Shown here one piece after another: positions 40,892 through 61,127 of a stretch of DNA of 64,000 nt. The translations under genes were made by a program, and so were the position numbers. The notes below the pieces were generated by a model. It was not told where the DNA came from. It worked only from the letters and a program-made list of their open reading frames with translations, and searched no databases. Positions within the stretch are counted from its first letter, which is position 1. Each line of letters opens with the position of its first letter. Location: assembly GCF_007971025.1 (NCBI RefSeq), contig NZ_CP042436.1:744001-808000 (forward strand). Reading direction: 5' to 3'. This stretch comes from Mucilaginibacter ginsenosidivorans (lineage in GTDB: Bacteria; Bacteroidota; Bacteroidia; Sphingobacteriales; Sphingobacteriaceae).

Positions 40892-41743
40892 GTGTTAGTT
40901 AAAACTTTCGGCAGCGCAGTATTCGGTATACAGGCTATTACAATTACGGTAGAGGTAAATATTGCTGCCGGTACTAAGTACTTTATTGTCGGTTTGCCTG
41001 ATAATGCTGTCAAGGAGAGTTATTTCCGTATCGAGTCGGCACTCAAAAATACAGGTTATCGTATGCCGCGCCAGCAGGTTGTAGTTAATATGGCGCCTGC
41101 CGATATCAAAAAGGAAGGTTCGGCCTATGATCTTACTATCGCTACCGCTGTGCTGGCCGCATCGGGACAGGTGGAAGCGAATGACCTGGACAAATACATC
41201 ATCATGGGCGAGCTATCGCTCGACGGCAGCCTTCAGCCGATCAAAGGTGCATTGCCGATAGCTATACAAGCACGAAAAGATGGTTTCAAAGGATTTATAT
41301 TACCTAAACAAAATGCACGCGAGGCGGCGATAGTTAACGATCTGGAAGTTTATGGAGTTGAAAATATAACCGAAGTGGCGCGGTTTTTCAATGGCGAAGG
41401 CCAACTTCAGCAAGAAATAGTAAATACCCGAGAGGAATTCTTTAACAGCCTCTGTAATTACGACAGCGATTTTAGCGAAGTAAAGGGACAAGAAAACATT
41501 AAACGTGCCCTGGAAATAGCCGCCGCCGGTGGGCATAACGTGATATTGATCGGTCCGCCGGGGGCAGGTAAGACGATGCTGGCGCGCAGGCTGCCATCGA
41601 TATTGCCACCCCTGACCCTGTATGAATCGCTTGAGACTACCAAGATACATTCTGTGGCAGGTAAACTTTCTACTACAGATGCTTTGGTCACGATAAGACC
41701 GTTCCGCTCGCCGCACCATACTATCAGCGATGTTATTAAATAG
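40892..41743 (+). pseudogene. yifB: yifB/comM (Mg-chelatase-like AAA ATPase), 5' fragment cut by element 1
   Basis: From a GTG at 40892 (MLVKTFGSAVFGIQA) the frame encodes the S5/Lon-like N-domain and the Walker A LIGPPGAGKTMLARRLPSIL (about residues 213-232). At HHTISDV (41734) host sequence ends, and three element codons (IK, stop) follow. Walker B and everything after it are missing. YifB/ComM is a AAA+ helicase that promotes branch migration of incoming DNA during natural transformation. The continuation is at 59440, where GATGTT is repeated and the frame resumes as [10 protein letters not shown]. Confidence 0.93.
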
Positions 41744-41793: not shown

Positions 41794-43584
41794 ATGTCAC
41801 GCAAAAAAACGAATATAGAGTTACCTCTTCCCAATAAATTAGCGATATACATTCGCGTTTCCACACAACAACAAGCAAAAGAAGGCATTTCTGCTTTAGA
41901 CCAAAAAATGCGGGGTGAAAAACTTGCCCGTGAATTAGGATGGGATTTTGAATTTTATGATGATTCAGGATTATCCGGAACTAAAGGAATTGAAGATCGA
42001 CAAGGCTTGTTGAAAATGCTTAACGACATTGAAGATAGGAAAATCGGTGGAATGTATTCAGTAGATATAGATCGATGGAGCCGAGATTCTAACTATGAAG
42101 AGCCTCAGTATATAATAACTAAATTAAAGGAGGCTGGCATAAAGATATATTTCCCAGGAGGTGAGTTTAATTTAAGCGACCCAAACATTGAATTGATGGG
42201 GCGAATTAAGGGTGTTTTTGCATCTTATGAAAGTTTACAAACGAAAGCTCGCGTAAAACGTGGACTTGAAAGAAGCATGTCGGAGGGAAAGAATGCTGGA
42301 GGCGGGGCCATGGTTGCCTATGGATATGACAGGATTGATAAAGTCTTACATATAAACGAAAAGGAAGCTACAGTCATTAAAAACATTTTTGAGTTGTATA
42401 TCGGTGGCATGGGTTCATTCGCTATTGCAGGATACTTAAATGACAGGGGTATACCGACTAAAAGGAATACCACGGCTTCCGGCCAAATGAGAATTGGGAA
42501 AAAAAGAATAGTTACTATAGAGGATGGAGCAATTATTGAAGATAAGCAAGTAAAACAACCTAAAGAATTTAAATGGAGAGATAGCGTTGTAATGAGCATC
42601 CTTAAAAACCCGATATACAAGGGAGAGAAGCGGTTTAATGACCAAAAAATCCCTTGCCCTATCATCATAGAACCCAATATATTCGATAGCGTGCAACTGT
42701 TATTTGCGGAACGAAAAAAATTCAAATCACCACCTAACTCAAATGACCCCAATCGGATAACGAAAAATAAGTTTCTTTTAAAAGGTTTACTTGTCTGCGG
42801 TAGGTGTTTTAAGTCTTTTTACGGTAAGCTTAGAGCAGATCTAAAAGACAAGGCTTATGTGTGTCTAAGTCAGAAATACAAAAATGAATGGTGCGGAAAT
42901 AAAGGAGTAGATATAGATTTTCTAAATAATTTGGTTTGGAATGAATGCTTAAATATTGAACAAGCCATAGTTAAGCACTTTGAACGATTTGAAGAAGAAA
43001 ATAGCTATAATGGAAATTCAAGTATAAAGGACAACTTAGCAGATGTTGAGTTTGCGAATAAAAGTTTAGACGAAATTCAAAAATCAAAACTGAAGTTATT
43101 GAGAAATTTTAATGAGGAAAGAATCAGCGAATCAGACTTTAAATTACTTAACAGTGAATATGATAACGAAATTATAATTTATGAAGATAAAAAGGCGACC
43201 GCAGAAAAAGCACTTTCCGTTTACAGAAGTAAGGATAAATTAATAGCTCACGTAAAAAATTACCTTAAACTTATCGAACCGGAAACAGCAACGTTTGAAC
43301 AAAAGCAAAGCTTTATTAGAGCGTTTATAAAACGTATAATATTAGACAGGGGCTTATTTTGGACAAACTATAGATATCCGGAAGCGCATCGTATCATTAT
43401 CGAATATAAATTCGATGAATTAACAGGTTTAAAGATGACCAATAAGGTCGAGGTCGGTTATAAACCAAATGGACATAGGTCCGGGGAGATAACTCACGAA
43501 GTTAATCTATCGCAACATTTATGGTTAGGGGATGAGCAAACAACAGGTTCTCGTTTTTTAGATAATATCGAGCATAAATATTGA
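41794..43584 (+). CDS. Large serine recombinase (integrase of element 1)
   Basis: 596 residues. The resolvase domain (about 15-165) has the nucleophile Ser23 in AIYIRVSTQQQAKEG and the SVDIDRWSRDS Arg motif. The recombinase domain (about 180-300) has GYDRIDKVLHINEKEA and ILKNPIYKGEKRFNDQ. A zinc ribbon (LVCGRCFKSFYG ... CLSQKYKNEWC) and a coiled coil (about 400-490) complete the large-serine-integrase layout. It catalyses attP x attB recombination at the GATGTT core in yifB. A TATGTTTG box (41758-41765) next to the left arm may drive it. Confidence 0.95.
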   Translation: MSRKKTNIELPLPNKLAIYIRVSTQQQAKEGISALDQKMRGEKLARELGWDFEFYDDSGLSGTKGIEDRQGLLKMLNDIEDRKIGGMYSVDIDRWSRDSNYEEPQYIITKLKEAGIKIYFPGGEFNLSDPNIELMGRIKGVFASYESLQTKARVKRGLERSMSEGKNAGGGAMVAYGYDRIDKVLHINEKEATVIKNIFELYIGGMGSFAIAGYLNDRGIPTKRNTTASGQMRIGKKRIVTIEDGAIIEDKQVKQPKEFKWRDSVVMSILKNPIYKGEKRFNDQKIPCPIIIEPNIFDSVQLLFAERKKFKSPPNSNDPNRITKNKFLLKGLLVCGRCFKSFYGKLRADLKDKAYVCLSQKYKNEWCGNKGVDIDFLNNLVWNECLNIEQAIVKHFERFEEENSYNGNSSIKDNLADVEFANKSLDEIQKSKLKLLRNFNEERISESDFKLLNSEYDNEIIIYEDKKATAEKALSVYRSKDKLIAHVKNYLKLIEPETATFEQKQSFIRAFIKRIILDRGLFWTNYRYPEAHRIIIEYKFDELTGLKMTNKVEVGYKPNGHRSGEITHEVNLSQHLWLGDEQTTGSRFLDNIEHKY

Positions 43585-45915: not shown

Positions 45916-46380
45916 TCACTGATTTATAAGCTTCAAAATATCATTTACACACCTTTCCGTATTTCTTTTTACATCCTTTTCCCAAAACCGCAAAACCGTA
46001 TAACCCATTGTTTCTAATATTTTATTATGTGATTTATCTCGCTGCATATTTCGCTCAATTTTAGGAATCCAAAAATCTCTATTAGTTTTTAGCTTTTGTT
46101 TTTTATTATCCCAATCGTAACCATGCCAAAATTCTCCATCGATAAATATAGCCAGTCTGTTTTTCCTTATTAGTATATCTGGTTTACCCGGGAATGTGGG
46201 GACATTTTTCCTATACCTTATTCCTTGACTCCATAGGGCTTTTCTTAATAATAGTTCTGCAACAGAGTTTGTTGACCGTATTTTTGACATCAAAGCACTA
46301 CGCTGTGGTGTTGTTTCAAAACCATTAGAAGCTTTAAATCTTGGTCCTTTTATAATTTCGTATGGATTTGATTCCGACAT
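45916..46380 (-). CDS. vsr: Very short patch repair endonuclease (Vsr)
   Basis: 154 residues. Vsr cuts next to T:G mismatches formed when 5-methylcytosine deaminates, so it accompanies C5-cytosine methyltransferases. The family text is clear: RSALMSKIRSTNSVAELLLR, LRKALWSQGIRYRKNVPTFP, KPDILIRKNRLAIFIDGEFW, FWHGYDW and a C-terminal RDKSHNKILETMGYTVLRFW. It is divergent from the methyltransferase gene, 81 bp apart. Confidence 0.95.
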   Translation of the reverse strand: MSESNPYEIIKGPRFKASNGFETTPQRSALMSKIRSTNSVAELLLRKALWSQGIRYRKNVPTFPGKPDILIRKNRLAIFIDGEFWHGYDWDNKKQKLKTNRDFWIPKIERNMQRDKSHNKILETMGYTVLRFWEKDVKRNTERCVNDILKLINQ

Positions 46381-46461
46381 CAGTTTACTTTTTGTTGACC
46401 ATTTTCAATACAATAAACAAAACCATGAAGTAGTATATTTGTGTTTTACTATAATCGTTCA

Positions 46462-47808
46462 ATGGTATCAGTAGTTAGTTTATTTAGTGGATGTGGTGGT
46501 CTGGACTTGGGTTTTCATGACGATTTTTTTAAGTTAAAAGCTGCTTATGATAATGATGCAGCAGCGGTTAAATGCTTGCAATTTAATTTAAAGGTTCCAT
46601 CAAAAGTTTTAGATGTTACATCTGAAGACTTCAATATTGAATTAGGGAGACTTAAAACAGCCGATATAGTATTGGGAGGTTTCCCCTGTCAAGGTTTCTC
46701 AAAAGCCGGGCCCAAAAACAATGATGATCCACGAAATCAACTTTATTTGGCGATGTTAAAAGCAGTGGATCAACTCAACCCTGCGATTTTTATTGGTGAA
46801 AATGTAGACGGCTTGGCTCAAAATTTCAACGGTAGCTTTGTCGATAAAATTATAGCCGACTTTGGTGCAATTGGTTACAATGTTGAATATCGAATTTTAA
46901 ATGCCGTTAATTATGGTGTTCCACAATTCAGGAGGAGAATTATTTTCATAGGGACCCGTAAATCATATACGCAGAAGTTTTCTTGGCCAAATCCAAGTCA
47001 TTATGGAATAACGCGCAATGGTGAATTTAAAACGGAATGGGATGTTACTGAGCACTCAGACCTGTTTAACCAAACTACATTAAAACCTGCTAAAACAATA
47101 AAAGCAGCGATAGAAGACTTATTAGAAAAGGATGAAAGTTTTCCCGACCATAAGGTTACTGAAAAATTAAAAAAGAATGATTTACTAATTGTTCAATCAA
47201 TAAAACAAGGTCAAAAACTTTGTAATGTGCGATTTTCGGATACTTCTGTTTATACATGGCAAATTCCATCAGTTTTTGGAGAAACGACAGAACGCGAAAG
47301 AAAAATACTTGAAACTATAGGTAAAAACCGTCGAAAGAAAATATATGGGGACATTCCCAATGGAAATCCTTTATCAATCGAGGTGATTAGCGACTTAACG
47401 ACCCTTGACATAAGCAAAAAAGAACTGGATGTATTAGTCACAAAAAAATATTTGCGAACCTGGGATAGCAAATACGACTTAACAGGAGCCATGTTCTGCT
47501 CCGGCCTTTACAAAAGACCATCTTGGAATGAACCGAGTCCAACTGTTCTTACTGTTTTCCATAGCCCAAGATATTTAGCTCATCCATTGAAGGTTAGACC
47601 ATTTACAATAAGAGAATGTGCAAGGCTACAATCCTTTCCCGATGATTTTAAATTTTTAGAAAGTGGCATATCTGTAGAAGATTCGTATAGATTAATAGGA
47701 AATGCGGTTCCTCCATTGTTAGCAAAGAGCTTATCAAACTCTGTTAAAGAATATTTTACGAACCTTAAAAATAAACATGAAACTCACCTTACCACAGTTG
47801 CCCTTTAG
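46462..47808 (+). CDS. DNA (cytosine-5) methyltransferase
   Basis: 448 residues from the ATG at 46462 (MVSVVSLFSGCGGLDLGF); the upstream start at 46441 coincides with the promoter box. Motif I SLFSGCGGLDLGF binds SAM, and GGFPCQGFSKAG carries the catalytic Cys. GENVDGL, PQFRRRIIFIG and the C-terminal RECARLQSFPDDF / YRLIGNAVPP complete the set. A long variable region (about 195-330) would set specificity, which I cannot read. TATATTTG at 46434-46441 is a likely -7 box. Its 3' end overlaps the putative endonuclease gene by 32 bases. Confidence 0.96.
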   Translation: MVSVVSLFSGCGGLDLGFHDDFFKLKAAYDNDAAAVKCLQFNLKVPSKVLDVTSEDFNIELGRLKTADIVLGGFPCQGFSKAGPKNNDDPRNQLYLAMLKAVDQLNPAIFIGENVDGLAQNFNGSFVDKIIADFGAIGYNVEYRILNAVNYGVPQFRRRIIFIGTRKSYTQKFSWPNPSHYGITRNGEFKTEWDVTEHSDLFNQTTLKPAKTIKAAIEDLLEKDESFPDHKVTEKLKKNDLLIVQSIKQGQKLCNVRFSDTSVYTWQIPSVFGETTERERKILETIGKNRRKKIYGDIPNGNPLSIEVISDLTTLDISKKELDVLVTKKYLRTWDSKYDLTGAMFCSGLYKRPSWNEPSPTVLTVFHSPRYLAHPLKVRPFTIRECARLQSFPDDFKFLESGISVEDSYRLIGNAVPPLLAKSLSNSVKEYFTNLKNKHETHLTTVAL

Positions 47809-49423
47809 TGAAAAGCTTGAAGAATTTGATTTTTGGATTACTCCCGCACTTGGTGAGATAAGATCGTCTGAGCGTTACAAAGAAGTTCAGGATTCACTTT
47901 GCTCATTGATCGAAATCATAGGATCGAAAATTAATTACTTCGCATCTATTACTGACATCAATTCTGAAAAAATCGCAGACGCAATAATTACTCATACCGA
48001 TAGTCTTGCTATTAAAGAAAAACTTGGCATTGTAGAAGCATTAGCAACTTTTCTATTTCTTGTAACAGGAAAAACTGATAATAATAGCAAGTGCCAATTT
48101 CCAATTTTTTTGAGAGATGTAGCACGTGTATCAGGATATCCTAAAGTGACGGGCTCCAAAACAGCCAAGGTATTATCAGAAGTGGATATTCCGAGAGAAA
48201 TTAAAAGCGATAAAATCGCTAAATTATTCTGTGAGCTTTCTGATTTTCCTAAAAAACAATATGAGTTTCTGACACAATATATAGATTTTATATTAAACGG
48301 GGATCAATTTATCAAATCGTTGTGGACTACTGGTAATACGTATTTCGCAATGAAAAAACTTGGTTATGAAAAAGATTTTTTGCAACCGATGATTATCTTT
48401 CAAGTTCGCGGATCTGTAAGCGCCTCTGGTGGCCACGAGCCGGAGGACTTATTACGTCAACGAATGCAAGAATGGGGACTAAAGCCCAATATTGATTTTA
48501 ATAACACCGATATAATTATAATTGAATTACCTACAGAGGGCGAAAATGCCAAAAACATATTAGTAGCAGAGGCAGTAACTAAAGAAGTTGAGGCCTCAGC
48601 TAAGTTAGCAGAGGTAACCGTTGAAGTTTCAACCGAGGATACCGCGGAAACAGTTATCGAGAAAGTTGAAGATACTATCAAAAACAAAACTCGTGCATAC
48701 GATTTTGTTCTCCCTTATAAGGTTGAGGGCTGGGATCAAAAAATATTCATTCAATGCCAATTCTATGCTGGTGATAGCGGTAGTGTAAGTCATAAAAACG
48801 TAGACCAAACCCGAACTTCTCGTGAATATGTAAAGACAAAAAGAGGAAATCCTATCTTTCTTGAATACATTGATGGCGCTGGATATTTCAGTTCCTTGTG
48901 GGGGGATTTAAAAAAGATATTAGCCATGGCTGATACCGATGATTTTTTTCAAGTAAGGACTGCGGTTATTAAGCTAAGGGGTAAACTCCAATCATTGGGC
49001 TATCTTACACCTTTAGAAGTAATCCATGCCTGGGCGCTTAATGAGGCTCAGTTGGACAAAACAAAGCAACATTTGCTAAAAGAGGGCTATGTTGAAAAGG
49101 AAATTGAACGTGTATTACAATACGAAGTATTTACAATTGATGGTAACGATTTAAAAATAGATAACTCGATGATAGAATTAAGCAGACGGTATTTGTTATT
49201 AGATTTTATCGCTGTAAAAGGGAAAAAATTTACCGATTACAGCACAATGAAAGGAGTGCTTTTAGTTCCTGCATTTGGGAAATATTTCGGTGTGCGCATC
49301 GAAGAACTTGTGGATGGTGTTATTCCTATGGCTGGATTATTTAAAAACGAATGGAAAGATACTGGAATAATTTTCAAGGACATTCAATTTTTAGCAGACA
49401 AAGGCTGGATAGCACAGCGTTAA
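47777..49423 (+). CDS. Putative type II restriction endonuclease
   Basis: 548 residues. The call rests mainly on context: it overlaps the C5-methyltransferase gene by 32 bases, beside vsr. A Ser/Glu/Val-rich segment lies around 270-305. The region YDFVLPYKVEGWDQKIFIQC, QFYAGDSGSVSHKNVDQTRT looks like the catalytic core: an Asp then Q-C-Q where PD-(D/E)xK enzymes show (D/E)-x-K, so the site is either variant or misread by me. HEPEDLLRQRMQEWGLKP may contribute an acidic residue. A strong terminator follows. Confidence 0.65.
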   Translation: MKLTLPQLPFSEKLEEFDFWITPALGEIRSSERYKEVQDSLCSLIEIIGSKINYFASITDINSEKIADAIITHTDSLAIKEKLGIVEALATFLFLVTGKTDNNSKCQFPIFLRDVARVSGYPKVTGSKTAKVLSEVDIPREIKSDKIAKLFCELSDFPKKQYEFLTQYIDFILNGDQFIKSLWTTGNTYFAMKKLGYEKDFLQPMIIFQVRGSVSASGGHEPEDLLRQRMQEWGLKPNIDFNNTDIIIIELPTEGENAKNILVAEAVTKEVEASAKLAEVTVEVSTEDTAETVIEKVEDTIKNKTRAYDFVLPYKVEGWDQKIFIQCQFYAGDSGSVSHKNVDQTRTSREYVKTKRGNPIFLEYIDGAGYFSSLWGDLKKILAMADTDDFFQVRTAVIKLRGKLQSLGYLTPLEVIHAWALNEAQLDKTKQHLLKEGYVEKEIERVLQYEVFTIDGNDLKIDNSMIELSRRYLLLDFIAVKGKKFTDYSTMKGVLLVPAFGKYFGVRIEELVDGVIPMAGLFKNEWKDTGIIFKDIQFLADKGWIAQR

Positions 49424-49488: not shown

Positions 49489-51117
49489 TCAATAATGCTT
49501 TTTCAAGTGTTTTGCTAAAGCCTCATTAAAAATAGAACGTCTTTTATTTATTTGTTTATAAATTCTACGGTCGCCAGTTAATCGTTGCGCACGATTTACA
49601 TAAGATATATAGTTACTCTTCTTTACATCTTTTTCGGTTTCAGCCTTAGGTTTTAATTCAACCGATTTATAATTAAATCCACCATCACGATTTTTCACCA
49701 ACCTTTTGACCTTAAAAAGCGTATCACGATTTGAATCTAAATCCAAACGCTTATATAACTTTATCAATCTACCTTTGAAAACTACTGGTTGGGATTTGCT
49801 CACTAATGCTATATGTTTTGCTCGACTAGCTTTCCGTTTGACCGAGTAAATTATTCTTCTATAAAATTTCCCAATATTAGCCGATTTTATTAGCGTCTTA
49901 TTTCCATAAAACTCAAATCCCAAATAACTAAGTGGTTTTTCAATTTTACACTGGTCTTTTAATAATTGAATAGAAACAATTCTTGACTTATTAGGACTGA
50001 TTTGAAAGGGTTTGAACAAATAAATCTCAGTTTTTTCTATACTGATTGATACAAGACTTTTCTCTATTTCTGATATAATAAATTTCTTGATGCAATCTGA
50101 TTGGTTTGGTTTACAAACTATCAAAATATCATCTGAATAACGTCTGTAATAACCGCCATGCTCTTCAACAACGTAGTCAAAAACTTTCTTATCAAATTCA
50201 AGAAGGTAAAGATTAGCTAAAATAGCACTAAGGGGAAGGCCTTGAGGGATGCCAACGGGAACACCATTTTTCACAAACTGTCTTTTATAGACTTTTATCT
50301 CTTTTGATTTGATAGCTTCCCTAAAGGCCTTTTCATTTTCAAAAAAAGCCTCTATACCATGCTCTTTTCTAATTTTCGCCAACATTCGCTCATCAAACCC
50401 TGCCCTTTTTCCATTAGTAGATTTCTTTAATCTAAGTTCGTCTCTCAGAATATATTTAAATTGTGTGGAAGCTTTAAATACATTATAATGATCTTTAGGC
50501 AGGCGGTCTTTATCTAAAAGCTTGCACCAGGCTCTTTTTAACTTTTCATGATTAAGCTCGCTAAAGAAGCTTTTAATGTCAAACATTAAAACAACACATT
50601 CAGAACAGGCTCGCTTTTCAATTTCACTAAATGCTTCTTTTGCAAAATTTATAGTGCTCTTACCTATTTCAGCGTTATCTTCCGTAGCTACTTTTCTGTA
50701 GGCTGTTATGCAATCCGATAATTCGTCAATTGATTTTAGCTTTTTTTCATACAACTCCAAAAGGCGATGTCCGTAATAGCCAAATATTAAAGCATCAATA
50801 TGGGTAGCGTAATGTAGTGGTCGAAGCTTCGCTGTTTGTTTGTAAACGCCCTTGTGGTAATAGTTATGTCCTCTTTTTGTAGGATTTTCGGGATGTTTTT
50901 TGAATTTTCTTTCTTTAATGGTTGAGTGAATTAAAGGAAAAAATGCATGGTTACCTACATATTTTTCGCTTTTAACCTTGGAAATAATCTCCCGTTCTTT
51001 TTTGTTAACGTTGATTTTAGGTGTTATGTGAAGATAACCACGATTTTTCAGCCATTTCGGCTTTTCAATAATTAAGTCCTGCTCCCTTGGTGTATCGGAT
51101 TTTTCGTTTACAAACAT
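49489..51117 (-). CDS. Defence-type reverse transcriptase (DRT2/UG2-like)
   Basis: 542 residues. The RT palm is clear: SECVVLMFDIKSFFSELNHE (motif A), VGIPQGLPLSAILANLYLLE (motif B) and YYRRYSDDILIVCK (catalytic YSDD near residue 328), then YLGFEFYG. The N-terminal region (LKNRGYLHITPKINVN, NHAFFPLIHSTIKERKFKK, LRPLHYATHIDALIFGYYGH) recalls the UG2/DRT2 antiviral RTs. It lacks the maturase and endonuclease domains of group II introns. DRT2 enzymes copy a noncoding RNA encoded just upstream; here a 390-bp gap with strong hairpins lies upstream. The RT call is firm; the DRT2 subfamily is my recollection of motif style. Confidence 0.85.
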   Translation of the reverse strand: MFVNEKSDTPREQDLIIEKPKWLKNRGYLHITPKINVNKKEREIISKVKSEKYVGNHAFFPLIHSTIKERKFKKHPENPTKRGHNYYHKGVYKQTAKLRPLHYATHIDALIFGYYGHRLLELYEKKLKSIDELSDCITAYRKVATEDNAEIGKSTINFAKEAFSEIEKRACSECVVLMFDIKSFFSELNHEKLKRAWCKLLDKDRLPKDHYNVFKASTQFKYILRDELRLKKSTNGKRAGFDERMLAKIRKEHGIEAFFENEKAFREAIKSKEIKVYKRQFVKNGVPVGIPQGLPLSAILANLYLLEFDKKVFDYVVEEHGGYYRRYSDDILIVCKPNQSDCIKKFIISEIEKSLVSISIEKTEIYLFKPFQISPNKSRIVSIQLLKDQCKIEKPLSYLGFEFYGNKTLIKSANIGKFYRRIIYSVKRKASRAKHIALVSKSQPVVFKGRLIKLYKRLDLDSNRDTLFKVKRLVKNRDGGFNYKSVELKPKAETEKDVKKSNYISYVNRAQRLTGDRRIYKQINKRRSIFNEALAKHLKKHY

Positions 51118-51465
51118 AATACTCTTGCGATAAGGCCATTACCCAGTTTTGAGTCACACCGTAATTGTCCAATAAGATATATAAATCAGTGGTTAAACAT
51201 ACCAAACCAGTAATGATGTTGATAGTTCAAACAATAATGTGTATATTAGAGGCTTACACGGTAAGCACCCATAAGATGATGTTCCTACATCCAATACTAC
51301 TGGCTCTGCACTGTGCAGAGGTAGTAGGCAAGGTAATATCTGGTCTCATAGATGGTTTCCAATGCAATCTCTTCCCTGTTACCCTATTTCAGATAACAGT
51401 AAGTCCACTTTTACATGAACTTTCCGGCCCATACTAATTGTCTGTAATCCTCAAGGTTGCAGGAC
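51118..51465 (-). ncRNA. Structured noncoding RNA upstream of the reverse transcriptase
   Basis: On the minus strand a -7 box TATATTTG (complement of 51471-51478) could start an RNA near 51463 that runs into the RT gene. Four hairpins fold within it. The first is 51401-51422, 7 bp with one G-U that would be a C/A mismatch on the other strand. The second is 51376-51399, CUGUUA/UAACAG. The third is 51295-51326, 13 bp with a 3-nt bulge and 3-nt loop. The fourth is 51252-51266, GCUUAC/GUAAGC. No protein frame is convincing. The layout matches the template RNA of DRT2-type systems. Ends are approximate. Confidence 0.55.
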
Positions 51466-51511
51466 TTATACAAATATAAGTATTGTTAAAATATTTATAG
51501 TATGTTTAATT

Positions 51512-52654
51512 ATGGATACCGAAGTAATTAACCTGGGTGACATTATAACCCTAACCTCACACGCATATTTAAACGATTTAACCTCTATAGTTATAAGCGG
51601 AGAGCCGCAATTTTTACCTCCGCTATTTGCTGTAGTTGAAATTTACAAAGTGCAAGGTGAAGAAGGTAGTCCTGATTCATTTGAATATAAATGTATTTGG
51701 TTCGCAACTAAACTACAGACATTTGAATATGTAAGATTTAAGCATATCTATGTTAGAAAGTTAACAGTTGATAACTCAAATTTACTTGTTGACGAATTAC
51801 AGCCTGGAGCCATGGTCACTTTAAAGACAATGGACTATGAATTATCTAAAAGGAAAGCCTCACTAAGTTTGGAAGATAATACTTTGCATAGTGGAGCAAG
51901 TAATACCACTATCAATGCATTACTTACCCATTTATCTCCAGTAATGCATGTCCTAAGCATTAAGGACCATAAATCGAAGCATCCCAAAAACAAGATTGAA
52001 CATGAGGAACCTGAGCAAGCGGAAATTAGACATCCATCGAAAGATGTGATGTGTTTTTGGTATAATTCTCTAAAAGAAAAATTCTCAGAAATAGTCATTC
52101 CTATTGAAGCTTTAAAGCTTGTAAACCCAATAAATCCAACGTTATTAGACTTAATAAATGAGGTAATTAACTCTGCTTTTTGTTTAAGGGTTATCAATCA
52201 AGAGCAAATATATCTTGTTAAGCCCAAATTGATAACGTATCGGAGTGGCTACTATTTTTTAAGAGGTTATGATTATGTTTTAAACCGCATTACTGAACTT
52301 TCAATTGATAATAATAGCAAATATGAAAAAATTGAAAAGTTTGTATTACACTCTGCGCCTGAGTTTAATTTGGAACAAGACCCAAACTCGTTATCAAAAG
52401 ATGCAGCACTGGTTGATATAGAGAAAAAAATATCCAATGCTAGCACTAATCATAACTACATTCGGATTAAGTATAAAAACAGAAATGATATTCTTTCCAT
52501 TCGGACGATTAAAGAATATAAAATCTTATTAGGACGAGAGGATGGCGCAGATTACAAGTATCTTCAAGGGTTTTGTTGTTTAAGAATGGCTGAACGAGTG
52601 TTCAGATTGGATCGCATCGATAATGTAGAGGAATTAGATCTAAAATTTGAATGA
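51512..52654 (+). CDS. WYL-domain protein of unknown function
   Basis: 380 residues. The last 70 (NYIRIKYKNRNDILSIRTIK ... YLQGFCCLRMAERVFRLDRI) read as a WYL domain, a ligand- or nucleic-acid-sensing fold common in regulators of phage-defence loci. The N-terminal 85 residues are beta-rich (INLGDIITLTSHAYLNDLTS) and unfamiliar; no helix-turn-helix is apparent. The gene is divergent from the reverse transcriptase, sharing its 390-bp upstream region, so it may sense infection or regulate that system. The start is the ATG at 51512. Confidence 0.7.
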   Translation: MDTEVINLGDIITLTSHAYLNDLTSIVISGEPQFLPPLFAVVEIYKVQGEEGSPDSFEYKCIWFATKLQTFEYVRFKHIYVRKLTVDNSNLLVDELQPGAMVTLKTMDYELSKRKASLSLEDNTLHSGASNTTINALLTHLSPVMHVLSIKDHKSKHPKNKIEHEEPEQAEIRHPSKDVMCFWYNSLKEKFSEIVIPIEALKLVNPINPTLLDLINEVINSAFCLRVINQEQIYLVKPKLITYRSGYYFLRGYDYVLNRITELSIDNNSKYEKIEKFVLHSAPEFNLEQDPNSLSKDAALVDIEKKISNASTNHNYIRIKYKNRNDILSIRTIKEYKILLGREDGADYKYLQGFCCLRMAERVFRLDRIDNVEELDLKFE

Positions 52655-52706: not shown

Positions 52707-53591
52707 ATGTTAACATATAACGAGCTTATTGAATTAAAGAAAAAGCTGGCTAATGAAGAGGTTACGTTAGAATATGCAAAAGAATCATGTTGGAAAGATT
52801 TTCAAGAAGGGGCAAGGGCATGGCATACAAATGATTGGAAAAAGAGACGAAGTGAAGTCCTTAAAGACAAATGCGAGATATGTGACAGCAAAGAAACTTT
52901 AACATTACAACATCTTTCTCACACCCTAAAATATAATGACTACGAAAGAGAAGTAACAAAAAGGTATACTGAAACTTTCATAGGCTCTAACAGTATTGTT
53001 GATAAATTTGAATTTAGTGAACACGTAATAAAAGACTATGATTATGTCCCTATTCCTTTGTGCCCAAATTGTGAAGATAACCGACCTAATAAAAGAGTAA
53101 GAAAACTTCCACAATACCTTTGCGCAGTATGCCGACACGAATTTGATAAACCTGTTTATAAATCAGTGGAGGAACTCATCGCTATTTTTTATGAAAATGA
53201 AGACGCTATTGAGGTTCGTGACAAGTGTTTTATTTCAAAAGATAAATGGAAAAACAAGCTTAATTTATCCAATATTAAGTATTGGTTTCAAAGAAATATG
53301 GCAAAAACCAAAGACAATGAGACAATTGGCAAAGAGGCATTTTTACTTTATTTAGATGATAACATCAAATATCTTTCCTTCTCTGATACAATAACTGCTT
53401 GTAAAAAATGTGCATTTAGTTATGATATAAAGAATATGGAATTATGTCCAAAATGTAAAGAGCATTACAAAGGCATTCAATATGCAACTTGTATTCAATG
53501 CTTACCAGAAGACAGGCGAAAAGCGGCATTAGAAACGATTGAATTTGGAAAGGAAATGCACGCTATACATAAAAAACTTGGAATTGACTGA
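52707..53591 (+). CDS. HNH-like / multi-zinc-ribbon protein
   Basis: 294 residues with six Cys-x2-Cys pairs (CEIC, CPNC, CAVC, CKKC, CPKC, CIQC). The stretch WKKRRSEVLKDKCEICDSKE then LTLQHLSH looks like the start of an HNH domain (W..R..vL, C-x2-C, then H). The remaining pairs would form further zinc ribbons. It could be a nuclease or a nucleic-acid-binding adaptor. It follows the WYL gene by 52 bp on the same strand and is probably expressed with it. No family is named with certainty. Confidence 0.65.
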   Translation: MLTYNELIELKKKLANEEVTLEYAKESCWKDFQEGARAWHTNDWKKRRSEVLKDKCEICDSKETLTLQHLSHTLKYNDYEREVTKRYTETFIGSNSIVDKFEFSEHVIKDYDYVPIPLCPNCEDNRPNKRVRKLPQYLCAVCRHEFDKPVYKSVEELIAIFYENEDAIEVRDKCFISKDKWKNKLNLSNIKYWFQRNMAKTKDNETIGKEAFLLYLDDNIKYLSFSDTITACKKCAFSYDIKNMELCPKCKEHYKGIQYATCIQCLPEDRRKAALETIEFGKEMHAIHKKLGID

Positions 53592-59445: not shown

Positions 59446-59655
59446 GCCCTGGTGGGTGGCGGCAGCAACCCGCAGCCAGGTGAAATATCCATGGCACATA
59501 ACGGGGTGCTTTTCCTTGATGAATTGCCGGAATTTAAACGTTCGGTACTCGAGGTAATGCGTCAGCCGTTGGAAGAACGGCGTATAACCGTTTCCCGTGC
59601 CAAATTCTCAGTTGACTACCCCGCAAATGTGATGCTGATCGCGAGCATGAACCCA
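59440..59655 (+). pseudogene. yifB: yifB middle fragment between the two elements
   Basis: About 72 codons of Yif[21 protein letters not shown], the Walker [41 protein letters not shown] and MLIASMNP. It resumes exactly where the 5' fragment stops and ends inside the conserved MNPCPCG motif, where element 2 begins. The rest of yifB is not in the window. Confidence 0.93.
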
Positions 59656-61127
59656 TGGCGTGGTGATACCTTTTCTCTGGATTTAGACGAAGGAGGGGTG
59701 GCGTAGGCAAGCGTGATGGTGATGTCTTGCTTGGTGATTTCCACTTTGCTCGTGATCACTTCAACAATTGCGCGTTTCTGATCAAGACTCATAGAACCCC
59801 ATTCATCATAAAGTGTTTTGGCATCTGTTAGCACCACGTCGCTTGAAATCAATTGAATATTTCTCACGTCGATTTCCGCCTCAAGCTCTGGAATAATCAC
59901 GTCTAACTGCTGCATCCGTTCTTCTAACGGCGTGTATTGTTCAGTGTACCGTTCTTTAGTGAGGCTGCCGTCGAGACGCAAGTCAACCAGTTCGGTGATA
60001 CGCTTAGCAAGCTTTGTCCGCTCCTTTACCGTCACCTCCAGCAGTTGCTTTTTCTCCTGCAATTGCTGGTCGGATTGTCGTAAATAGTCTTCTCTGTTGA
60101 TGCCGCTCAGATACTCTTTGAGATACACCTGGTATATCTCATCAATATCAGCGACACTGATACGGGTTTTGCAGCGTTTGCAGGCATAGTTTTTCGATGA
60201 TTGATAGACATACATAGTGGTGCCGCAGGAGCATTTCACGAAGCCGGATAAGAGATAGACGGGTTTCGGGCCACGTGGTCTGCGCTTGGCTTCCTGGTTG
60301 TCGAGGATGCCGTTGCATTGCTCCCACAATTCGGGTGAGATAATCGACTCACAGGGAATGATAACCCATTCCGATTGCGGTTTCAGCACCCATTGCTTGT
60401 TGTTGCCGGTGGTTTGGGTATAGTTGGCCCGGCGCTCGCCTTTAGCAGTGCTGTCACGCAATAATCGAGAAACGGTGGTGGCGGTAAATTGTGTGCCATT
60501 GCGAGTGCGATAGCCGCGCCTATTCAATTCCTGGGCCGTACTCTTTTTGCGCTGTAATTGGAGAAACAGTTGATACATGAGTGCTCGTACCGGTGCTTCA
60601 GTCGTGTTGACGACAAATTCTTTGCCGCTCCACTGGTAGCCAAAGGGGGCTTGCCCTCCTAATGATTTGCCAAGTTTTGCCCTGATGGGAACTGATGCGG
60701 CGACGCGGGCGGCTATTTCTTCACGCTCCCATTCTGCCATTGCGGAAATAATGGTGAAAAACAATCTGCCGGCTGGACTGCTTGTGTCGATGTTTTCAGA
60801 CAGCGAGACCAGGTCCGCGCCCTCTTGGCGGAAAATTTCCGCGAACTCCAAGAGTTCTTTGGTGCTCCGGGCCAATCGCGCTAGCTTGGAAAAGACTAAG
60901 CCCGTGATATGTCCGCTCCTGATGTCAGCGAGCATGCGCTGTGCCTCGGGATGCTGCATGACTGATTTCCCACTCACAGCATCCAATCGATACACCTCCA
61001 TTACCTGCCAATCATGCGATTGGGCGTAGTATCGTGCTCGTTGTTCGTGATGCTCGGGACTATCGTCCTTGACTTGCATATCGGTACTCACGCGTATCCA
61101 TATGCCAACTCGTTTTTGTATTGCCAT
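59616..61127 (-). CDS. Large serine recombinase of element 2
   Basis: 503 residues. Ser14 in [16 protein letters not shown] is the nucleophile. [16 protein letters not shown] and [15 protein letters not shown] complete the catalytic domain; [19 protein letters not shown]-like text, the zinc ribbon [20 protein letters not shown] and a coiled coil follow. It is not close to the element 1 integrase and is more G+C rich. About 12 C-terminal residues ([11 protein letters not shown], stop) are encoded by host yifB DNA, so the protein's end depends on integration. Its target is the yifB stretch encoding MNPC. Confidence 0.93.

Follow-up and report, generated by a model that had tools for sequence, protein, structure and literature searches.

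A probable DRT2-type system of Bacteroidota with a structured leader RNA, an endless antisense frame and a divergent WYL partner

We analyzed a reverse transcriptase (RT) locus in a 64,000-nt stretch of the Mucilaginibacter ginsenosidivorans genome (the window). DRT2 systems defend bacteria against phages: by copying an RNA repeatedly, their RT assembles a gene that is absent from the genome. We conclude that the locus is very probably a Bacteroidota system of the DRT2 type, in which a neo gene would be built and a divergent WYL partner is a constant component. The architecture of the RNA, the template edges, the endless frame and the linkage of the partner were computed here. Drt2 RTs and the rolling-circle synthesis of neo were already known, and the link between RT and WYL was known as a profile. 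In the literature searched, outside which most subscription papers lie, no description of neo in this clade was found. The RT gene, the RNA and the partner gene are located as follows.

49489-51117, minus strand: reverse transcriptase, Drt2/UG2-like, with YSDD; start codon uncertain (ORF, profiles, PDB chain)
51074-51467, minus strand: structured ncRNA, from stem to stem; the real ends may differ (closing-stem test, folding)
51512-52654, plus strand: divergent partner gene; the N-terminal half matches RTasYodC, and two WYL-like domains (205-277 and 294-380) are predicted in the C-terminal half (profiles, model)

The minus-strand ORF encodes an RT of 542 aa with the motif YRRYSDD. The initial annotation had regarded it as a probable DRT2-type RT without an intron or retron companion and proposed a comparison with DRT/UG profiles. 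In PADLOC, two Drt2 models came out on top, at 424.6 and 273.4 bits; the next-best family was RT_UG17 (77.1 bits), and Drt9 scored 39.6 bits. The closest PDB chain was also a DRT2 (9c0i, E 3.6e-40). The RT thus matches Drt2 best, and a placement outside the UG groups was not seen. It missed the cut-off of the Drt2 equivalog in NCBIfam (321.6 versus 390 bits), and therefore it is divergent from the members that set this cut-off. The score for group_II_RT_mat of NCBIfam was 64.6 bits, below the cut-off of 300. With curated thresholds, Rfam detected one tRNA and nothing else in the whole 64-kb window. Thus, there is no group II intron RNA beside the RT, and the absence of an intron companion was confirmed. 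At E <= 1, a single chance-level Rfam match (E 0.48) was obtained in the leader.

For the comparative analyses, we used the best 80 of 435 relatives in the species genome collection, which are 35-56% identical to the window RT and nearly all titled Bacteroidota. Together with the window and L003, from a genome of the same genus, they provide 82 leaders. L002 and L020 are one locus, and L020 alone was used. The RT is uncommon: at E <= 1e-30, it was detected in 12 of 395 evenly drawn Bacteroidota genomes, the window's own included.

The leader between the RT and the divergent WYL gene (51118-51511) is 394 bp long, and had been described as a structured gap of about 390 bp transcribed from the minus strand. 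The minus-strand fold from 51467 to 51074 had an MFE of -121.8 kcal/mol (z -4.83), and none of 100 shuffles was as low. In contrast, the plus-strand fold of the same stretch had a z of -1.50, with 8 of 100 shuffles as low. Since the unusual folding is confined to the minus strand, transcription from this strand is supported. The gap is structured as described, but the RNA does not end at the ATG at 51117, because its closing stem reaches 51074. This ATG also sits in a motif common to the relatives' RNAs. Therefore, the annotated ATG is only a putative start of the RT; the window RT has no ATG where the relatives' RTs begin. The elements of the RNA outside the template are listed below.

51471-51478, minus strand: putative -7 box TATATTTG, TAnnTTTG, of the ncRNA/RT transcript (sequence; word in relatives)
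51459-51467, minus strand: 5' arm of the closing stem P0, AAGTCCTGC (stem pairing test)
51074-51082, minus strand: 3' arm of the closing stem P0, GCAGGACTT, within the annotated RT ORF (stem pairing test, sequence)
51074-51170, minus strand: conserved 3' domain (covariation, matches of model R1)
51160-51156 with 51093-51089, minus strand: helix of the 3' domain (covariation)
51154-51150 with 51145-51141, minus strand: hairpin ACTCA/TGGGT of the 3' domain (covariation)

We take TAnnTTTG to be the Bacteroidota-type -7 box consensus and read TATATTTG as such a box. The word was present in the expected stretch of the leader in 54 of the 80 relatives. In the relatives' leaders, the 5' stem arm lies directly after this box and pairs with the strand just ahead of the RT start. 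The pairing was tested in 56 of the 82 leaders, namely the 54 with TAnnTTTG in the expected stretch, together with the window and L003 (segments hand-set). The native arms gave a mean of -24.76 kcal/mol, as compared with -13.95 kcal/mol for swapped partners, and the lowest mean in 20,000 random re-pairings was -16.34 kcal/mol. The native partner came first in 32 of the 56 leaders, second in the window and no higher than 20th in seven. As judged by eye, the 3' arm in L023 (near 4965) and L043 (near 4998) seems to contain an in-frame ATG of the RT, so that RNA folding could restrain RT translation.

In the 3' domain, 32 sequences showed 46 double-change cells, as compared with 24.0 after shuffling, and this number was reached by none of 500 shuffles. 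The proportion of paired cells was 79.0%, versus 73.0% in shuffles and 28-45% when the sequences were slid. Further pair types were not raised (24 versus 25.1 in shuffles), and only 52.8% of the cells pair in helix 3. Model R1, which represents the 3' domain, found the leader in 35 of 57 loci outside its training, with one match each at E <= 0.01. In the window's 5.35-Mb genome, it matched a single place, the leader (61.1 bits). The 22 loci missed by R1 were 15 relatives (L074, L076, L079-L083, L085, L086, L090-L092 and L096-L098) and seven remote yardsticks (L114, L115, L100-L102, L004 and L005). Conservation of the leader upstream of homologues, on which the initial annotation had made its reading depend, was thus observed in the stem partners, the covariation of the 3' domain and the matches of R1.

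The region between the 5' part of the RNA and its 3' domain contains the presumptive template.

51174-51368, minus strand: template of 195 nt, the inferred copied unit (alignment-defined edges)
51365-51368, minus strand: putative 5' jump motif ATTG, the first bases of the template (aligned edges)
51170-51173, minus strand: putative 3' jump motif ATTG, immediately past the template (aligned edges)
51174-51368, plus strand: inferred neo frame, one unit of 65 codons, stop-free; first ATG at 51213 (frame analysis)
51219-51249, plus strand: candidate promoter inside the neo unit, made up of TTG (51219-51221), 20 nt and TATATTAG (51242-51249) (8 of 9 consensus positions)

The edges were set by two alignment columns, an ATTG behind a conserved hairpin and an ATTG ahead of the 3' domain. 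When the template of the window is read antisense and concatenated, a single endless frame with 65 codons per unit is obtained. The edge analysis covered 59 of the 82 leaders in sets A, B and C, that is, all except L074, L076 and L079-L099 (23 leaders). Set A consists of the 35 leaders with a visible closing stem and 3' motif. For sets B and C, alignment-based edges were counted, and hand-picked edges from a shared-word scan were excluded as biased. The concatemer frame was open in 51 of the 59 leaders (32 of 35 in set A, 10 of 14 in set C and 9 of 10 in set B), and the distance between the edges was divisible by three in 33 of 35, 11 of 14 and 9 of 10, respectively. The 33 leaders of set A with such a distance have 12 different unit lengths. 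These counts are not independent, because the relatives share ancestry. When the set-A units were shuffled with their dinucleotides and lengths kept, 2.04 of 35 were expected to be open, and the maximum was nine in 100,000 draws. After a shift of one edge by 1 or 2 nt, 0-1 of the 35 units stayed open; sense-strand frames were open in four of 35.

In eight of the 59 leaders, no open unit was found at the aligned edges (L039, L057 and L059 in set A; L052, L054, L055 and L040 in set C; L068 in set B), and their edge alignment looks wrong. In set C, L069 is open with aligned edges that have no letter in common, and L063 differs in the first letter. The direct repeat GACAATTA (51442-51435 and 51169-51162, spacing 273 nt) was tried as another candidate jump site and rejected. 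It gives one TAA per period and is also absent, by eye, from the relatives' leaders; the alignment-defined edges replaced it. As a control, a Drt2 leader from Photobacterium was analyzed. Among the distances 100-124, only 111 was open and had TTGACA/TATAAT 15-19 bp apart at the junction. The spacing across the junction was 17 bp, and the second edge was ATA, not ACA. The 111-nt unit and the junction promoter are as described for Klebsiella DRT2 in PMC12039810.

In the window, ATTG is present at both template edges. In the 32 open units of set A, the leading letters common to both edges numbered at least three in 27 units, at least four in 19 and fewer than three in five. Matched changes were observed in L034 (ATTC/ATTC) and L038 (ATCA/ATCA). 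In the sister groups, sets B and C, most leaders have TTTA at the two edges. In a quick RT tree of 85 rows, made without L037, L064 and L078, a branch separates the ATT group from the TTTA groups. In this clade, the putative jump word thus changes from one sister group to another, and the two edges change in step.

TTG-N18-21-TAnnTTTG words were enriched in the unit (sum 238 versus 219.7 in shuffles, with a maximum of 228 in 200 shuffles); the sum on the other strand was 220. In contrast, sigma-70 word pairs (TTGACA-N16-18-TATAAT) were not enriched (276 versus 274.65 in shuffles), and TATAAT occurred in five of the 32 units, as compared with 5.77 expected. A TTGACA/TATAAT promoter at the junction was not found in these units: the best word crosses the junction in seven of the 32. 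The best sigma-70 pair of the window, TTGATA/TATATT, is within the unit. The best Bacteroidota-type word lies 65-71 nt into the unit in 12 of the 32, with a spacing of 20 in seven of those 12. Since it crosses the junction in six of the 32, including L024 with 9/9 positions, the internal promoter is not uniform.

The neo unit is predicted to form one long helix (pLDDT 81.4). In 29 of the 32 units, a stretch of 19 residues scores above 1.6 on the Kyte-Doolittle scale; the near-copies L033 and L046 were counted separately. The mean was 2.03, versus 1.75 for the same residues shuffled; in the window, both values were 1.85. Neo sequences show little residue conservation: they are 7-25% identical to that of the window. 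The changes at the three codon positions in three close pairs were 40/38/52, without a clear excess at the third position.

The antisense frame might be an ordinary plus-strand gene for a small hydrophobic protein, regulated by the leader RNA as an antisense transcript in the manner of a type I toxin-antitoxin pair and without template jumping. The frame is indeed readable in the genomic DNA (51165-51437, 90 codons, TTG start), and the hydrophobic stretches in 29 of the 32 units suit such a product. A linear antisense gene might preserve its frame as well, and so we examined the part of the unit that would not need to be open in an ordinary gene, namely the codons between the 3' edge and the first ATG. 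Yet no stop was found in 478 codons of the 51 open units, whereas 42.0 were expected after shuffling those letters, and the other two frames contain 68 and 48 stops. Since the 51 units were picked as open, this zero is partly built in; the weight is carried by the rate of 51 in 59 and the contrast with the two other frames. Beyond the two template edges, the nearest stops are reached after a median of 8 and 9 codons, and some relatives have stops 2-3 codons outside the 3' edge, which argues against an ordinary gene. Moreover, nothing in a linear gene demands that the distance between the edge words be divisible by three. We consider this explanation improbable.

It is likewise quite unlikely that the cDNA made from the RNA is non-coding, as in DRT9 and DRT10, and that the open frame has another cause. 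DRT9 and DRT10 are also UG-family RTs with a template RNA, and PMC12632851 describes their products as homopolymer or short-repeat DNA and the RT_UG17 group as DRT10. The same source reports several kinds of repetitive cDNA from class 2 UG RTs, and the weak codon-position signal (40/38/52) fits a non-coding product. However, the 32 open units of 35, against 2.04 expected, speak for coding, and the Drt2 score of the RT is far above those of Drt9 and RT_UG17. Finally, the locus could be a decayed copy, as the RT has no ATG at the start site of its relatives and lies in stacked recombinase elements within a broken yifB. This is extremely unlikely, because the RT frame, the template frame, the closing stem, the 3' domain (61.1 bits in R1) and the WYL gene are all intact.

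According to the DRT2-type reading, the RT would bind the leader RNA, a minus-strand transcript, and copy its 195-nt template (51368-51174). Template jumping at the repeated edge words would give a concatemer. In the concatemer, each unit would add 65 codons to a single frame without end and would bring its own ATG and a candidate Bacteroidota-type promoter, from which transcription may start. The product would be a helical, rather hydrophobic repeat protein. In DRT2 systems, concatemeric cDNA and Neo are produced when phages infect, and the defence is abortive. The product proposed here may be toxic and halt the growth of the infected cell, and the divergent WYL protein, as the constant second component, may gate the output.

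The partner gave a PADLOC match to RTasWYL-YodC (353.9 bits), and thus its association with RTs is already catalogued. It also matched Pfam WYL (31.7 bits; cut-off 21.8). In its predicted model (pLDDT 90.6), the WYL-like domains are nearest to those of PafBC (Z 11.8), BrxR, CapW and DriD; these fold matches have Z 9.7-11.8 over 72-88 residues. Foldseek alone was weak (best E 5.6e-4). The partner shares WYL-like domains with these regulators, but Pfam detected no DNA-binding domain in it, and its N-terminal half matches RTasYodC instead. The structure entries of CapW and DriD are titled as ssDNA-bound.

By a one-sequence search, the WYL gene was adjacent and divergent in 53 of the 80 loci. By profile, it was adjacent, and always divergent, in 79 of the 80, the exception being L096. 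At E <= 1e-15, the WYL profile matched in five of 390 Bacteroidota genomes, and these are the five with the best RT matches. Among the seven genomes with remote RTs only, four had matches (E <= 1e-5), in the WYL part alone; each was either on a different contig from the RT or some 147 kb away from it, and none was adjacent. Since the RT is expected to make single-stranded cDNA and the WYL protein adjoins it, a cDNA sensor is suggested. The protein may bind single-stranded cDNA, or sense infection, and thereby gate the output. We further propose, tentatively and with considerable doubt, a three-part DRT2 in which the tandem-WYL protein would be a dedicated sensor of the concatemeric ssDNA made by the RT and would license or restrain neo expression from the promoter within the unit, not from a junction promoter alone. 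No paper tying RTasWYL-YodC to DRT2 or neo synthesis, or WYL to DRT systems, was found in the literature searched (most subscription papers were outside it).

With Klebsiella pneumoniae DRT2, as described in PMC12039810, PMC11100668 and PMC12596737, the locus shares a Drt2 RT, an upstream ncRNA on the same strand, a template followed by a structured 3' region, a template length divisible by three, an antisense frame that is stop-free over the junction, and a helical Neo. The endless frame in 51 of 59 leaders strengthens the initial assignment to a probable DRT2-type system; the ACA edge word and the junction promoter of Klebsiella were not found in this clade. The edge word is ATT(G) here and TTTA in the sister groups, whereas it is ACA in Klebsiella according to the same sources. 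Unit length is 195 nt in this locus and ranges from 102 to 207 nt among open relatives; the Klebsiella units have 111-129 nt. The promoter words are of Bacteroidota type instead of TTGACA/TATAAT at the junction, and the RT exceeds the Klebsiella protein (425 aa) by about 100-120 aa. The long-range closing stem at the RT start (the search for which covered this clade only) and the divergent WYL gene are further differences. According to PMC11100668, the ncRNA is predictable in more divergent DRT2 clades and the annotation of Neo is more challenging; the authors take this difficulty as a hint that rolling-circle copying and neo expression follow other mechanisms there. Our results give a concrete answer for one Bacteroidota clade, with template edges, unit lengths and a constant partner that resembles ssDNA sensors. 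The relatives suggest that genes absent from the genome are widespread in a phylum.

The initial annotation had placed the RT in a yifB-borne element beside a WYL gene, and this is the case. The yifB gene (Mg-chelatase-like) is split into 40892-41743 and 59452-59706 of the window, and the WYL gene adjoins the leader. The element between the two parts carries a large serine recombinase (41794-43584), the RT, Vsr, a cytosine methylase and others, and a second recombinase (59616-61127) apparently interrupts it in turn. The segment 45916-49423 is a defence island adjoining the RT.

45916-46380, minus strand: Vsr nuclease
46441-47808, plus strand: C5 methylase
47777-49423, plus strand: 548-aa protein without a match in Pfam, PADLOC or NCBIfam

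From its position, our guess is that the 548-aa protein is a restriction enzyme. A cysteine-rich protein (52707-53591) is encoded next to the WYL gene. A search at E 1e-5 against the ORFs of all 80 loci gave no relative of it, and thus it is probably outside the system. In L014 (G017:C14:861330-861446), 39 codons are 79% identical to the C-terminus of the window RT, and the same genome has an intact relative; this stretch is perhaps a remnant. L082-L099, mostly from marine Flavobacteriaceae, have a shorter WYL relative of about 230-280 aa from stop to stop, and many of them have an altered 3' hairpin, GAGTCGAGAATTCGGC.
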